Assembly (NCBI GenBank): GCA_902582105.1 | Contig: CACHQT010000002.1 | Span: 25,706-89,705 of the forward strand | From: an uncultured Pelagibacteraceae bacterium | Lineage (GTDB): Bacteria > Pseudomonadota > Alphaproteobacteria > Pelagibacterales > Pelagibacteraceae | DNA length: 64,000 bases | Direction of reading: 5' to 3' | Shown: one piece after another, positions 35,555-59,405 of the stretch | How the letters are laid out: the number at the start of each line of letters is the position of its first letter | How positions within the stretch are numbered: position 1 is the stretch's first letter | Program-made: the position numbers and the translations under genes | The notes under the pieces: model-generated | Told to the model about the DNA's origin: nothing | Seen by the model: the letters and a program-made list of their open reading frames with translations, nothing else | Database searches by the model: none

Positions 35555-36550
35555 ATGATAATAAAACATTTTGAATTAAGCAAAATTAATAATTGTAAAG
35601 CTAAAATTTTTTTGTTGTATGGACAAAATGAGGGTTTTAAAACTGATATAACAAAAAAATATTTTATTGATAAATTTAAGAATGATATTTTTAGATACGA
35701 TGAAAAAGAAATATTAGAAAATAAATCTAATTTTTTTAATGGAATTCTTTCTAAGTCTTTTTTTGAAGAAAAAAAATTATTTATTATCTCAAGAGTTACA
35801 GACAAATTAGTAGATATAATTGAAGAAGTTTTAGAAAAAGAAATAAAGGATATAACAATAGTTCTTAATGCATCAATTTTAGATAAAAAAACAAAACTTA
35901 GAAAATTATTTGAAAAAAGCAAAGATGTTATTTGTGTTCCTGTTTATGAGGATAATAGTCAAACTTTAAGTGTAATAGCTCGAGATTTTTTTAAAATAAA
36001 TAAAATATTAATTTCACAAGAAACAATAAATTTACTTATAGAGAGAAGCAGAGGAGATAGAGGTAATTTAATTAATGAATTAAAGAAGATTGAGTCATAT
36101 ATGAAAACTCATAAAAATATTAGTTCTGAAGAAATTCTTAAATTAACAGATTTAGCAGAAAATTATAATGTTTCGGAATTGTTAGACAATTGTTTGTGTA
36201 AAAATTCAAAAAAAACAATTAATATATTAAATGAAAATAATTTTAGTTTGGAAGATTGCATCATAATTATTAGATCTTTCTCAAATAAATTAAAAAGGCT
36301 TCAAAAAATTCTTAGAGAGATTAAACTAAATAAAAATTTAGACTCAGTAATTGCTTCTTACAAACCACCAATATTTTGGAAAGATAAAGATGTAATAAAG
36401 AATCAAATCAATAAGAATGACTTAGAAAATATTGAAGATATGATTTTTAAAATTAATGATATAGAGCTTCTAATTAAAAAAAATTCTGATAGCGCTATAA
36501 ATATTATGTCCGATTTTATAATTAATTCTTCAATTCAAGCTAATAATTAG
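35555..36550 (+). CDS. holA: DNA polymerase III subunit delta
   Basis: LLYGQNEGFKTDI; HolA-like length and context. Confidence 0.88.
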   Translation: MIIKHFELSKINNCKAKIFLLYGQNEGFKTDITKKYFIDKFKNDIFRYDEKEILENKSNFFNGILSKSFFEEKKLFIISRVTDKLVDIIEEVLEKEIKDITIVLNASILDKKTKLRKLFEKSKDVICVPVYEDNSQTLSVIARDFFKINKILISQETINLLIERSRGDRGNLINELKKIESYMKTHKNISSEEILKLTDLAENYNVSELLDNCLCKNSKKTINILNENNFSLEDCIIIIRSFSNKLKRLQKILREIKLNKNLDSVIASYKPPIFWKDKDVIKNQINKNDLENIEDMIFKINDIELLIKKNSDSAINIMSDFIINSSIQANN

Positions 36551-37388
36551 CTTTGATTACTTCTATAATTTTATTCAATTGCTCTAGGTCTTTATAATTA
36601 AATATTATACTTCCAGAATTATTTTTTTTATTTTTAATTAAAACATTTAATCCTAATTTTTCAGTAATTGATAATTCTAATTGGGATAAATTAGGATCTT
36701 TTGATTGACTTTTTCTTAATTTTTTGCTCTTAAAAATTTTAACCAAACTTTCAGCTTGTCTTACAGATAATTTCTTATCTATGATCTTCCTTGCAATAAA
36801 TAGGGCGTTTTCCAAGCCAACTAAAACCTTAGCATGTCCTTGGGTTAATTTATTATTTTCAATCAATTTAATTACGTCTTGAGGCAAACTTAATAAACGC
36901 AAACAGTTCGTAACATGGCTGCGACTTTTTCCAATAAATTTTGAAACCTTTTCTTGATCATAAGAAAACTCACTTATTAATTTTTGATATCCTTGAGCCT
37001 CTTCAATGGCGTTTAAATCATGTCTTTGTACGTTTTCTACAATAGCGAATTCAAGCGATTTTAAATCATCAGCCTCGGTAACTACTACAGGAACTTCGTG
37101 CAAACCAGCTTTTTGAGCTGCTAACCATCTTCTTTCTCCAGCAATGATTTCATATTTATTTTTTTGTTGTTCTGATTGCCTAACTATAATTGGCTGAATA
37201 ACACCTCTTTCTTTAATTGAATTTGTTAACTCTACAAGGTTTTCTGGGTCAAAAGTTTTACGTGGTTGATACTTATTTCTTATCAAATCTCCTATTAAAA
37301 CCTTGTTAGTGCTTTTTTCAGCTTTAGTCTCGCCTATTAGTGACGATAATCCCCTACCTAAACCTTTTTTTATTTTTGATGCATCCAT
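36540..37388 (-). CDS. parB: Chromosome partitioning protein ParB
   Basis: GLGRGLSSLIG, RKTFDPENLVELTNSIKERGVIQPIIVR, GERRWLAAQKAG, helix-turn-helix. Confidence 0.97.
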   Translation of the reverse strand: MDASKIKKGLGRGLSSLIGETKAEKSTNKVLIGDLIRNKYQPRKTFDPENLVELTNSIKERGVIQPIIVRQSEQQKNKYEIIAGERRWLAAQKAGLHEVPVVVTEADDLKSLEFAIVENVQRHDLNAIEEAQGYQKLISEFSYDQEKVSKFIGKSRSHVTNCLRLLSLPQDVIKLIENNKLTQGHAKVLVGLENALFIARKIIDKKLSVRQAESLVKIFKSKKLRKSQSKDPNLSQLELSITEKLGLNVLIKNKKNNSGSIIFNYKDLEQLNKIIEVIKANY

Positions 37389-38182
37389 TAAGCTGCGCTT
37401 TCAAATTCTTTATCTTGATTAATAAATTCATCTGTAAAACTAAAATATGAAATACTTCCAGGACAATTTTTATCATACATTAAAACTGGAACACCATGAG
37501 ATGGTGCTTCTGATAATCTAACATTTCTTGGTATTACTGTATTGTAAACTTGGTCGTTAAAATAATCTCTTGCTTCTTTTTCAACTTGTGATGAAAGTTT
37601 ATTTCTTTTGTCATACATAGTTAAAAGGATGCCTCTAATTTTAAGTTCCTTGTTCAAGTTAGTTCTAATTCTTTCTATTGTTTTCATTAGTTGTGTTAGT
37701 CCCTCTAAAGCAAAAAACTCAGTTTGAAGAGGTACAACTAATGAAAAAGAAGCTACCAGCGCCATAACAGTCAAAAGACTTAATGAAGGCGGACAGTCAA
37801 TGAAAATATAATCATAATTGCCTCTAGAATCCTTTAAATACGCCATTAATTGATCCTTCAAAATAAATGCTCTTTTACTATCGCCAGCTGTTTCCACCTC
37901 TAAACCCGATAAATCTACGTTAGAGGTAATTATATCTAAATTTTGAAATTCAGTTTTTTTTACAACTTCATTTATTCTCTTTGTACCATTCAAAACTCCG
38001 TATATTGTATTACTTGAATTTTCAATATTTGAAAGACCTAGGCCTGTTGTCGCATTTCCTTGTGGATCCAAATCGATTACTAAAATTTTTTTACCTTTCT
38101 TTGACAGCCCTGCTGCTAAATTTATAACTGTAGTAGTTTTTCCAACTCCACCTTTTTGATTTATTATAGAAATAATTTGCAT
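37388..38182 (-). CDS. parA: Chromosome partitioning ATPase ParA
   Basis: IINQKGGVGKTTTVINLAAGL deviant Walker A. Confidence 0.97.
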   Translation of the reverse strand: MQIISIINQKGGVGKTTTVINLAAGLSKKGKKILVIDLDPQGNATTGLGLSNIENSSNTIYGVLNGTKRINEVVKKTEFQNLDIITSNVDLSGLEVETAGDSKRAFILKDQLMAYLKDSRGNYDYIFIDCPPSLSLLTVMALVASFSLVVPLQTEFFALEGLTQLMKTIERIRTNLNKELKIRGILLTMYDKRNKLSSQVEKEARDYFNDQVYNTVIPRNVRLSEAPSHGVPVLMYDKNCPGSISYFSFTDEFINQDKEFESAA

Positions 38183-38187
38183 TTGTT

Positions 38188-38832
38188 TTAATTTTTTTTT
38201 TTTATATTTTTTATACTCAACAAAAATGAGTCTTCATTTGTAAGACTCCTTTTTTCCTTATACTCAAAATCCCAGTCCTTTAAAGTTTCAGTTAATGTTT
38301 TTTTTCCACTTTTGCCCATAAACAAAATTAGATTTTTATATTTACTAAAATTTTTATAGACTAAATCTAAAACTATTGGCATTGGTTTAAAAGCTCGTGC
38401 CATGATTGTTCCGGATATTAATTTTTTAGTTTTGAATACATCTTTTTGAATAATTTCAGTTTCTAAGTTTAATTCTTTAGAAACCTCTTTTAAAAAAGAA
38501 CTTTTGTGATAGCTCTTTTCAAATAAATTCATTTTTATTTTTTTTTTCAAGTTTTTTGCCATTATTGCTATAACAATTCCAGGCATTCCACCCCCTGTAC
38601 CTAAATCACAGGTTGTACTTTGATTTAAATCAACAAAATCAATAACTTGCGCTGAATCTATTATATGTCTTTTGCGAATTTCTGCATTCTTAGAGGTTTT
38701 TTTGCCAATAATGTTAATATTCTCATTTTTTGAGCTAATCATTGATATTAGTCTCTCAAAGTCTAAACACGTTTCACGTGAAACATTAAATCTATCTAAT
38801 AAAGAATAATTTTTTAAAATATTTTCATCCAT
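38188..38832 (-). CDS. rsmG: 16S rRNA (guanine527-N7)-methyltransferase RsmG (GidB)
   Basis: FNVSRET, KRHIIDSAQ, DLGTGGGMPGIVIAI. Confidence 0.96.
   Translation of the reverse strand: MDENILKNYSLLDRFNVSRETCLDFERLISMISSKNENINIIGKKTSKNAEIRKRHIIDSAQVIDFVDLNQSTTCDLGTGGGMPGIVIAIMAKNLKKKIKMNLFEKSYHKSSFLKEVSKELNLETEIIQKDVFKTKKLISGTIMARAFKPMPIVLDLVYKNFSKYKNLILFMGKSGKKTLTETLKDWDFEYKEKRSLTNEDSFLLSIKNIKKKN
38770..38785 (-). promoter_or_regulatory. parS centromere site inside rsmG
   Basis: Minus strand TGTTTCACGTGAAACG, 15/16 match to canonical parS TGTTTCACGTGAAACA; about 1.4 kb from parB. Confidence 0.92.
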
Positions 38833-42147: not shown

Positions 42148-43836
42148 TTATAAATTTTTATTTTGCTGAGAGAATAATCTCCACTTATCTTTTAAAATTT
42201 TGCTTAATTCTTGTCCAAGATTTTTATTATCGAATAGTGGAGAGTTAATAGCTAAGTTTCTTAAAGAGTGTCTAATTTGGCTTAATTTATTAATTTCTGA
42301 AGAAATGATTTTAGCCTTTTCTATGTACTCATTTTTATCTTTGGCAATAAAATTATCAAGATTTAGGTTTTTGTTAATTGACACACCAAATTTAGAATTA
42401 AATATTTCGCCTGAAAGCGTAATTGTGGGTACTCCCATCCATAAGGACTCGAATGTAGTTGTTGCGCCGGCAAATGGAAATGTATCAAGAGATATATCTA
42501 TATTATTATACATTTTTAAATGGTCATCGTAATTTTTTAGTCTTTCCAAAAAAATAATTTTTTCTTCCTTAACCCCATTTTTTTTAAATTTGTTTTTAAT
42601 ATTATCCCTAAGTAATTGATGATCATGAACAGAAGATTTTAAAATTAACTTAGAATTATTATTTTTTAAGATTTCACTCCATGTTTTTATCGTTTCATCT
42701 GATAATTTTGCATAATTATTAAATGAACCAAATGTTATATATTTATTTTTTTTAGCAGGAAGTTCATTAATTTTTATTTCTGAAGAAATCAAAAAATGAC
42801 TATTCCATATTTTTGGTAATCTGATTATTTTTTCTGTGTAATTGAAATCTTCTTCTTTTTTAATTAAATTTTCATCAGCTATTAAATAATCCATTTCTCT
42901 TATTCCAGAAGAATTACAATAGCCACACCAAGATATTTGCAATGGTGCTGATTTATTTTTAAAAATTTCACATCTATTTCCTGTTGAATAACCTGTAAGA
43001 TCAAACAATATATTAATTTTTTTATCTCTAATGAGATTAACGGCTTCTAGATCACTTAATTTAACTATATCGTACCATTCATGGAATATTCCTTTTAGTC
43101 TTTCTGTAGTTGAGTCATCAGCTCCTAAATTGTTATTACTAAAGGCTATAATTTCATAATTATCTTTTTTTAAAATTTTAATTGTTTCTTCAATAAATTT
43201 TGCAACCGAATGGGTTCTTAAATCAGCTGAAAAAAACCCTAATCTTATTTTTTTAGGATTTGTCTCATACTGAAATTTTTTTAGTGTTTTTTCATCAAAT
43301 TTTTCTAGTTTTTCTGAATATTTGTGACAAAAATTTAGATAATCTTTTTGATTATATTGATAAGTGTAATTTGTTGTAAAAAGAAAAGCTGACCAGAGCT
43401 TGGAGTTAGCTTCTTTATTGTCAATAATTTTTTTGTAATTAACAAGGCACTCATTCATATCTCCTAAATAAAAGTGCATTCTTGATAAAGCTAAAGTAGC
43501 TTTATAGTCATATTTTTTTTTACTTAAATATTCGATTAATAAATCTTTTGCTTCCCCATATTTAAAAAGCCTAATAGAAATTTCTGCATAATTAAAAAGT
43601 GCATCTATTAAAGTTTTATCTTTTAAATATGCTTCTTTAAACAAATCTAAAGATTCATTTAAATCTTTTTTGGAAGTTGGTATTTTTGATATTTTAGAAA
43701 CACCAAGTAAATTTAAAAGGAAAGGTGATCTTTTTTCTAAAATTAATGAATTTACTTCAAATTCTAATTGATGAAATTTTTTATTTTGAACTAAGCTTTT
43801 AATTAGTTCCTGTTTTGCTTCACTTAAATCTTTCAT
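42148..43836 (-). CDS. TPR protein with O-GlcNAc transferase (SPINDLY/OGT, GT41)-like domain
   Basis: N-terminal TPR-like repeats; KKIRLGFFSADLRTHSVAKFIEE, LFDLTGYSTGNRCEIFKNKSAPLQISWCGYCNSSGIREMDYLIAD, FPFAGATTTFESLWMGVPTITL. Confidence 0.85.
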   Translation of the reverse strand: MKDLSEAKQELIKSLVQNKKFHQLEFEVNSLILEKRSPFLLNLLGVSKISKIPTSKKDLNESLDLFKEAYLKDKTLIDALFNYAEISIRLFKYGEAKDLLIEYLSKKKYDYKATLALSRMHFYLGDMNECLVNYKKIIDNKEANSKLWSAFLFTTNYTYQYNQKDYLNFCHKYSEKLEKFDEKTLKKFQYETNPKKIRLGFFSADLRTHSVAKFIEETIKILKKDNYEIIAFSNNNLGADDSTTERLKGIFHEWYDIVKLSDLEAVNLIRDKKINILFDLTGYSTGNRCEIFKNKSAPLQISWCGYCNSSGIREMDYLIADENLIKKEEDFNYTEKIIRLPKIWNSHFLISSEIKINELPAKKNKYITFGSFNNYAKLSDETIKTWSEILKNNNSKLILKSSVHDHQLLRDNIKNKFKKNGVKEEKIIFLERLKNYDDHLKMYNNIDISLDTFPFAGATTTFESLWMGVPTITLSGEIFNSKFGVSINKNLNLDNFIAKDKNEYIEKAKIISSEINKLSQIRHSLRNLAINSPLFDNKNLGQELSKILKDKWRLFSQQNKNL

Positions 43837-46638: not shown

Positions 46639-47643
46639 CTAATAATATCCTTTTACAAACTTTATTAAATAATCCAACATTTGTGGATTAGTTTTGGGCA
46701 ATACTCCATGCCCTAAATTAAAAATATAAGGATGATCTTTAAAAATATCTAGATACCTTTTGGCCTCAACTTTTAATTTTTCTTTGTCTGTTAATAGAAC
46801 TTTTGGGTCTAAACCACCTTGCACAACTATGTCTGTTTTTTTAATTATTTTCTCTGGATTTATTTTATAATCGATATTAATTACATCTGGCTTAATTATT
46901 TTACAATACTCTTCATAATTTTTAATTTCTCTTGGAAAACATATAACGGGCACTTTATGTGCTTTAACAAAATTGACTATATTTAGAGTTCGATCATAGA
47001 TATAATCTTCTATATATTTATGTTCTAATAATCCCGCCCAACTATCAAATATTTGAATAATTGTTGCGCCATTCTTTATCTGATTTTTTATATGAATCTT
47101 TAAAAATTTATCTAACATTTTAAATGTCTCTTTAATTAAAATTTTATCTTTAAAAAAATTTTTATTTAAATTCCGCTTGGGCGAACATTTATTAATCATA
47201 TAAACTAACAATGTCCAAGGGGCACCAACAAACCCGATTAGATCTTTACGTTTAACTAACTTATTTTTACTTACTTTTTTTATTGACTTATAAACAGGCA
47301 ACAATTTTTTAGAAAATTCTGAATCTTTAACTTCATTTATTATCTCTAAGTTTAAACTATTTAATTTAGGTCCAAAATTCTTTTTAAAAGTAACTTCTTG
47401 TCCGAGACCATAAGGAACCATCAATATATCTGAAAAAATTATCGCAGCATCCAAATCAAACCTTTTAAGTGGTTGCAGTGTAATCTTTGATGATAAATTA
47501 ACATCTAAACATAATTTAATGAAATTTTTATTTAATTTTCTTATTTTTCTAAATTCAGGTAAATATCTACCAGCCTGCCTCATAAACCAAATAGGTTTAC
47601 TATCTACCTTTTTATTTCTTATACATTCTTGAATAGGAGTCAT
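46639..47643 (-). CDS. hemE: Uroporphyrinogen decarboxylase
   Basis: PIWFMRQAGRYLPEFR; IIFSDILMVPYGLG; FNLGHGVLP. Confidence 0.97.
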   Translation of the reverse strand: MTPIQECIRNKKVDSKPIWFMRQAGRYLPEFRKIRKLNKNFIKLCLDVNLSSKITLQPLKRFDLDAAIIFSDILMVPYGLGQEVTFKKNFGPKLNSLNLEIINEVKDSEFSKKLLPVYKSIKKVSKNKLVKRKDLIGFVGAPWTLLVYMINKCSPKRNLNKNFFKDKILIKETFKMLDKFLKIHIKNQIKNGATIIQIFDSWAGLLEHKYIEDYIYDRTLNIVNFVKAHKVPVICFPREIKNYEEYCKIIKPDVINIDYKINPEKIIKKTDIVVQGGLDPKVLLTDKEKLKVEAKRYLDIFKDHPYIFNLGHGVLPKTNPQMLDYLIKFVKGYY

Positions 47644-47925
47644 TTAAACATTAATATTTTATTTTAGTTTTAGTATTATATTATGTTAATAAAGGTAATA
47701 ATTTATTATCAACAACTTATACATATTTTATTAACAAATAAATCTTATTAAAATTACTGTATATTGGCTAATTTGAAGCGCTATTTAATTTTATTTTATT
47801 AAATGTATATTGTTTATTAACGTTGATAATAATGTTTATAAAATTAATGTTTTACAAAAATAATAAAAAAAAATTTTTAAAATAAAAATTAATTATAATA
47901 ATATTTTAATATTAACTACTTATAC
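47644..47925. other. Putative chromosomal origin of replication (oriC)
   Basis: 282-bp gene-free AT-rich region between hemE(-) and ppsR(+), the position of oriC in Caulobacter and other alphaproteobacteria; DnaA-box-like TTATCAACA 47706-47714, TTATACATA 47717-47725, CGTTGATAA 47821-47829; G/C-free stretch 47856-47915. Confidence 0.75.
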
Positions 47926-48747
47926 ATGAATAATACATATCAAATCTACTTAATATCAGACTCTACTGGAGAGACGCTTGATAGAATTTTTTTAGCTCTT
48001 AAAGCTCAGTTTAAAAATTTCAATTATAAAATACATTCATACTCATTTATAAGAACGCAAAATCAAATATCTAAAATAGTCGATATTTTAAACAATCAAA
48101 AAAATTCAATAATACTTTATACAATAGTTGATGTTGATCTTGCTAATTTTTTATTAAAAAAAAGTGAAAGATATAAAATTCCCTGTTTTAGTGTTTTAGG
48201 AAACTTAATAATTAATTTTTCAAAAATACTTGATCAAAAAGCAACGCATGTGCCCAGTGGTCAACATACTTTAAATGAAGAATATTATGATCGAATTGAT
48301 GCAATCCAATTTACAATGAATCATGACGACGGTAATTCGATAAATGATTTAGAGAAATCAGATGTTATATTGTTAGGAGTTAGTAGAACTAGTAAAACTC
48401 CAACTTCTATTTATTTAGCTAACAGAGGATTAAAAACTTCAAATATACCTCTTGTAAATGAAAATTCAGTCCCAGAATTACTTAAGAAAAAACCAAAAAT
48501 ATCTTGTGTTGTAGGATTAACTACAGAACCAGCCAGATTATTAGATCTTAGAAAGAATAGAATGAACTCTTTAAAAGAAAATGAGCCAATTGATTATACA
48601 AATTTGGAGACAATTTCTAGAGAAGTAGAGAAAGCAAAGAAAACCTTCAAAAAATATAATTGGCCTGTTATTGATGTTACTAGGAAATCTGTTGAAGAAA
48701 CAGCTGCGTCAATTATTAAAATTCACGAGATATATAAAAAAAAATGA
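47926..48747 (+). CDS. Pyruvate,water/phosphate dikinase regulatory protein (kinase-pyrophosphorylase, DUF299)
   Basis: YLISDSTGETLDRIF, LLGVSRTSKTPTSIYLANRG. Confidence 0.93.
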   Translation: MNNTYQIYLISDSTGETLDRIFLALKAQFKNFNYKIHSYSFIRTQNQISKIVDILNNQKNSIILYTIVDVDLANFLLKKSERYKIPCFSVLGNLIINFSKILDQKATHVPSGQHTLNEEYYDRIDAIQFTMNHDDGNSINDLEKSDVILLGVSRTSKTPTSIYLANRGLKTSNIPLVNENSVPELLKKKPKISCVVGLTTEPARLLDLRKNRMNSLKENEPIDYTNLETISREVEKAKKTFKKYNWPVIDVTRKSVEETAASIIKIHEIYKKK

Positions 48748-57915: not shown

Positions 57916-57916
57916 A

Positions 57917-58189
57917 ATGCTAAGTACATTAGAAAACTTATTTAATCTTGCAAGAGAAAGAAAAAAAAATCCAGTAGAGGGCTCTTATACAAATAAGTTG
58001 CTAAATGACAAATCATTTAGCAAAGCAAAAGTTTTAGAAGAAATAGGCGAACTTATAGAAGCTGTAGAAAAAGACACAAATAAAATCCATGAGGCGGCAG
58101 ATGTTTTTTATCATTTAATAATGTATCTTGAAGCAAATGATATCAAAGTTGAAGAAGTAATAATGGAACTCAATAAAAGAAAAAAATAA
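57917..58189 (+). CDS. hisE: Phosphoribosyl-ATP pyrophosphatase
   Basis: MLSTLENLFNLARERKKNPVEGSYTNKLL, KVLEEIGELIEAV; likely start is the internal ATG at 57917, one base after hisF. Confidence 0.92.
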   Translation: MLSTLENLFNLARERKKNPVEGSYTNKLLNDKSFSKAKVLEEIGELIEAVEKDTNKIHEAADVFYHLIMYLEANDIKVEEVIMELNKRKK

Positions 58190-58195
58190 AATTTT

Positions 58196-58896: not shown

Positions 58897-59405
58897 TTGA
58901 AAAAATTTCCAGAACTTATCTAGAAATAAAATCTATTAATAATTTAAATGAGGTTGAAAAACCAATAGGAAATTATTCAATTAATTTAGTTAACCCAACA
59001 GACTTCCAATTAAATAAATTTCTTTACAAACAGATAGGTCAAAAATATTTTTGGAAGGACAGACTGGAATGGTCTAATCAAACTTGGATTAAATATGTTT
59101 CAGATAAGAAACTTTCAACTTATGTTTTAAAAAATAAAGATGAATTTATTGGATATTTTGAACTAATTTTTCATGAAACAAAGACAGAAGCTGAGATTGC
59201 ATATTTTGGAATTTTAGAAGACTATTTTGGTAAAAAATTAGGAGGTTATCTTTTAAGTTATGCAATTAAAAAGGCTTTTAATTTAAATATTAAACGTGTG
59301 TGGCTTCACACATGTTCTCTAGATCATAAAAATGCCCTAAAAAATTATTTATCAAGGGGTATGGTAGTTTTTAAATCTGAGATTTTGCAAATAAAGGTTG
59401 CCTAA
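58893..59405 (+). CDS. GNAT-family N-acetyltransferase (GTG start)
   Basis: AEIAYFGILEDYFGKKLGGYLLSYAIKKAF, RVWLHTCSLDHKNALKNYLSRGM. Confidence 0.85.
   Translation: MIEKISRTYLEIKSINNLNEVEKPIGNYSINLVNPTDFQLNKFLYKQIGQKYFWKDRLEWSNQTWIKYVSDKKLSTYVLKNKDEFIGYFELIFHETKTEAEIAYFGILEDYFGKKLGGYLLSYAIKKAFNLNIKRVWLHTCSLDHKNALKNYLSRGMVVFKSEILQIKVA

Follow-up and report, generated by a model that had tools for sequence, protein, structure and literature searches.

The window, a 64,000-nucleotide stretch of an uncultured Pelagibacteraceae genome, is part of an 89.7-kb contig in a draft assembly of 953 kb and 42 contigs. Among named genomes it is closest to Pelagibacteraceae single-cell genomes, which places it in SAR11. 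Its genes follow the order parB–parA–rsmG–mnmG–mnmE–(a gene at 42148)–rho–hemJ–hemH–hemE, then an intergenic gap, then ppsR–maf–aroE–coaE–dnaQ, and gene directions around the gap are those given in a preliminary description of this DNA, with transcription running away from it on both sides. At 282 bp, the gap is the largest gene-free stretch of the window, as had been claimed, though narrowly, as another at 57916–58195 measures 280 bp and a nominal 505-bp gap at 58897–59401 looks by eye like an open reading frame that begins with TTG. Its GC content is 11.7%, compared to roughly 21–36% in 2-kb stretches of the window. As a side observation, the gene at 42148–43836 (minus strand), between mnmE and rho, encodes a 562-residue protein weakly similar to UDP-glucose:protein N-glucosyltransferase; mnmE and rho are nearly adjacent in the complete genome of a relative (G012).

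DnaA boxes at the hemE–ppsR gap

The features of the locus, with those from 47706 to 47829 placed by a site scan and comparison with relatives, are:

36540–38182, minus: parB and parA, adjoining the parS-like site
38770–38785: parS-like site CGTTTCACGTGAAACA inside rsmG, 9 kb from the gap (within 9.2 kb); rsmG of G012 has an identical core
46639–47643, minus: hemE, left flank (Pfam PF01208)
47644–47925: predicted oriC, the whole hemE(−)/ppsR(+) intergenic region, with a DnaA-box cluster
47644–47670: AT-rich DNA between hemE and the trios, which the polarity of the basal unwinding system (BUS) marks as the duplex likely to open first (DUE); sister family f2 has ATATATATA there
47671–47679, plus: DnaA-trio-like repeat TAG-TAT-TAT (3′-GAT-5′ type, read on this strand), 4 nt from a box; TAGTAGTAGTAG there in an f2 locus
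47684–47692, minus: predicted DnaA box TTATTAACA adjoining the trio repeat; many relatives have TTATTCACA instead, and the site ranks with the best-conserved 10-mers in the gap
47706–47714, plus: predicted DnaA box TTATCAACA
47717–47725, plus: weaker predicted box TTATACATA, 11 bp past the 47706 box
47728–47736, plus: predicted DnaA box TTATTAACA, 11 bp past the 47717 box
47814–47822, plus: DnaA-box-like TTATTAACG
47821–47829, minus: DnaA-box-like TTATCAACG, overlapping the preceding one by 2 bp
47833–47841, minus: predicted DnaA box TTATAAACA, conserved (mean KL 1.01)
47856–47915: 60-nt tract without G or C, poorly conserved, which may ease opening
47909–47928, plus: two boxes at the right-hand end, ATATTAACT and TTATACATG, spaced by 11 bp, of which the latter takes in the start codon of ppsR
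47926–48747, plus: ppsR (COG1806/DUF299), right flank (Pfam PF03618)

The five DnaA-box-like 9-mers of the preliminary description (starting at 47706, 47717, 47728, 47814 and 47821) all lie where it had placed them, and the boxes are AT-shifted (TTATNAACA), as it proposed. It overlooked the minus-strand boxes at 47684–47692 and 47833–47841, as well as the spacing of exactly 11 bp between the boxes that start at 47706, 47717 and 47728, a three-box tandem run that arises in 0.0008 of shuffles. We found four perfect TTATNNACA sites in the gap compared to a mean of 0.36 in first-order Markov shuffles (fraction at or above the observed count 0.0004), and no other 282-bp stretch of the window is as dense in them. 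DnaA itself retains the motifs RRSRYLVRPRQ and RDHTT, which we take to be the base-contact motifs of its domain IV. For IHF there is one match, at 47707, which overlaps a DnaA box and shows no enrichment over relatives; genes of the HU/IHF family are present.

At the right-hand end, a DnaA-box-like 9-mer (47920–47928) covers the start codon of the flanking gene in most relatives, even at several maf loci. Of the 108 gaps, 87 contain the form TTATNNATG, in which the ATG is that of ppsR, commonly preceded by TTATNNACA at a distance of 11 bp, and TTATGAACA overlaps the gene start in other genera and at several f2 loci. Because ATGAACA is also a plausible common gene beginning, a regulatory role for this box is only a suggestion.

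Conservation, flank swaps and GC skew

The arrangement hemE(−)/gap/ppsR(+) is present in all 108 relatives in which both flanks are readable, with gaps of 261–289 bp and a GC content of 12–20%. These gaps hold on average 3.55 perfect boxes compared to 0.38 in shuffles, a sample of 108 that is inflated by densely sequenced close relatives and has an effective size of about 38 at 85% identity. Per-position conservation is high at 47684–47693, at 47834–47843 and at the ppsR start. The preliminary description had expected both the 9-mers and the AT-only tract to be conserved; the gap and its boxes are kept throughout the 108, and the AT-only tract is poorly kept. A mid-gap block past the tandem boxes (47764–47813), which is not a DnaA box, is also well conserved in the closest relatives.

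Both flanking genes have been exchanged in related lineages, a natural experiment that separates the origin from its neighbours' promoters. In sister family f2, no match to PF03618 (ppsR) was found in 24 genomes, and hemE, a gap of about 275 bp and maf are retained at all eight loci examined, with 1.9 perfect boxes per gap compared to 0.29 in shuffles. Relocation of the origin in this family was considered and rejected, with the hemE/maf gap in place. In another complete genome (G063), rho adjoins ppsR across a 353-bp gap that also has boxes; in its genus, g6 (G063, L248:16504–18950), rho directly faces ppsR over the origin gap and the hem genes are not there. As the gap and its boxes outlast both the loss of ppsR and the replacement of hemE by rho, it is the gap itself that is kept, not a neighbour's promoter.

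The GC-skew minimum that had been predicted near the gap was sought in relatives, as the 42-contig draft is too fragmented, and from sampled 20-kb stretches, so that the resolution is tens of kilobases. In G012 (1,343,202 bp in one contig, gap at 1.262 Mb), the sampled cumulative minimum falls at 1.23–1.29 Mb, depending on the calculation, and so no more than about 35 kb from the gap, the maximum lies opposite, near 0.62–0.63 Mb, and the two arms have mean skews of +0.044 and −0.071 (P = 0.00012). This comparison took the expected position as the dividing point; free scans placed the optimum nearby. The arms also differ in G063 and G064 (P = 0.0014 each) and in the f2 genome G037 (P = 0.034), with P = 0.056 in G067, and the fit in three other complete genomes is looser than in G012: the minimum of G064 is 115 kb from the gap and the maximum of G067 is 168 kb off the opposite point. 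The prediction is thus borne out in G012, G063 and G064 and more weakly in G067 and G037. The skew supports the region, and the case for these particular 282 bp comes from the boxes, their conservation and the synteny.

Could the gap simply be the divergent promoter of hemE and ppsR, its box-like words a product of AT-richness? The two genes are indeed transcribed away from this strongly AT-rich gap, but a roughly tenfold excess of boxes over composition-matched shuffles, their survival through the flank swaps and the skew switch nearby make this very improbable. Less probable still is an origin elsewhere, for example beside dnaA as in many bacteria. On the window's own contig dnaA (C2:9905) is about 63 kb from the gap, and the distance is 61–72 kb in eight complete genomes and in G037 (for example, G012:C1:1198936); in some genomes the sampled skew is too coarse to tell dnaA from the gap, and one SAR11 study begins its genome alignments at DnaA (PMC12421898). 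Against this, the parS-like site, parAB and the conserved gap are all at the hemE/ppsR locus, and hemE marks the known alphaproteobacterial origin.

Strand opening and regulation

The conserved layout on the hemE side consists of DnaA-trio repeats (TAGTATTAT), a 4-nt spacer, the inverted box and the tandem boxes, which is the layout of BUS. T-A-N trinucleotides reach the inverted box across this spacer (TAGTATTAT in the window, TAGTATTAGTAGTAT in the relatives L115 and L118), and the f2 locus L105 has ATATATATA followed by TAGTAGTAGTAG at the equivalent place. The relative orientation of trios and box is presumably also that of BUS. In its published form the pattern is a box separated by a spacer of 0–16 nt from three or more trinucleotides with A in the middle (PMC8287927), and in the window a DnaA box does lie within 16 nt of at least three NAN trinucleotides. 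Three of the stricter TAN trios are reached in 43 of 108 gaps; the mean run over the 108 is 2.68 compared to 0.58 in shuffled gaps, a test that also rewards the presence of a box, and runs are short (two repeats) in many relatives. Given this match to the published pattern, we infer an opening site at 47644–47680.

The preliminary description had instead assigned the unwinding element to the AT-only tract adjoining ppsR. The 60-nt run without G or C is exactly where it was said to be and is the longest in the window (the next has 43 nt), but it is the least conserved and most scrambled part of the gap among the seven closest relatives, per-position conservation is low at 47864–47903 within it, and the median longest such run in the 108 relatives is 21 nt. 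Because the trio–box elements are conserved at the opposite, hemE end, and in the sister family too, opening that begins in the AT-only tract of this origin is improbable; strand opening probably takes place next to hemE.

CtrA silencing of the origin is central in Caulobacter, and CtrA sites are a Caulobacter feature that is not universal among hemE-type origins. TTAA-N7-TTAA sites are missing from the window's gap and number 0.32 compared to 0.28 expected over the 108 gaps, and GANTC (CcrM) sites show no excess either. A scan of OmpR-type regulators from the window's genome and G012, one of them PhoB, gave none that reached the cut-off of a Rhodobacterales CtrA model, and Pelagibacter has been reported to lack ctrA (PMC2877005). 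With no excess of sites, no recognised CtrA and ctrA reported missing, silencing of the origin by CtrA is therefore probably absent in SAR11.

A very probable hemE-type origin in SAR11

We conclude that the hemE/ppsR gap is the chromosomal oriC, of the alphaproteobacterial hemE/COG1806 type, in SAR11 (probability about 0.95), and thereby keep the preliminary placement while correcting its internal map. The finding is ordinary in kind and well supported. In Caulobacter the origin was located by experiment at hemE|COG1806 (PMC1914354), and the gap resembles Caulobacter crescentus Cori and the Rickettsia prowazekii ori in its flanking genes, AT-rich sequence, several DnaA boxes and non-adjacent dnaA. 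It differs from that type in being shorter (282 bp compared to more than 400 bp; PMC1914354), in its AT-shifted boxes and in showing neither an excess of CtrA sites or GANTC nor a recognised CtrA. With BUS of Bacillus subtilis and other bacteria (PMC8287927, PMC10721633) it shares a DnaA box, a short spacer and central-A trinucleotides beside AT-rich DNA, although it has only three clear trios and more TAT than the preferred 3′-GAT-5′. Metagenomic replication studies imply SAR11 origins (PMC9589681), with no locus named in the accessible part of that source, and our literature search found no paper on experimental mapping of SAR11 oriC.

In the mechanism we propose, DnaA-ATP would bind the tandem plus-strand boxes (47706–47736) and the inverted box at 47684–47692, then extend onto the trios at 47671–47679 and, in the manner of BUS, unwind the AT-rich DNA in the direction of hemE; DnaB would be loaded next, and forks would depart both ways. 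The boxes at 47814–47841 and the pair at the ppsR start codon may help complex assembly or tune initiation and ppsR expression. More tentatively, and at rather long odds, SAR11 might have a minimal, CtrA-free origin of about 280 bp run by DnaA alone, in which the start-codon box (of ppsR, or maf) ties that gene's expression to initiation.

SAR11 bacteria are among the most abundant in the ocean, and read depth near the origin is used to estimate their growth. With dnaA 61–72 kb from the gap, software that takes dnaA as its origin anchor would err by about 5% of the chromosome, and an oriC fixed at hemE|ppsR is a better anchor for read-depth methods. Boxes and trios conserved in a lineage probably free of CtrA also indicate what a stripped-down alphaproteobacterial origin keeps.
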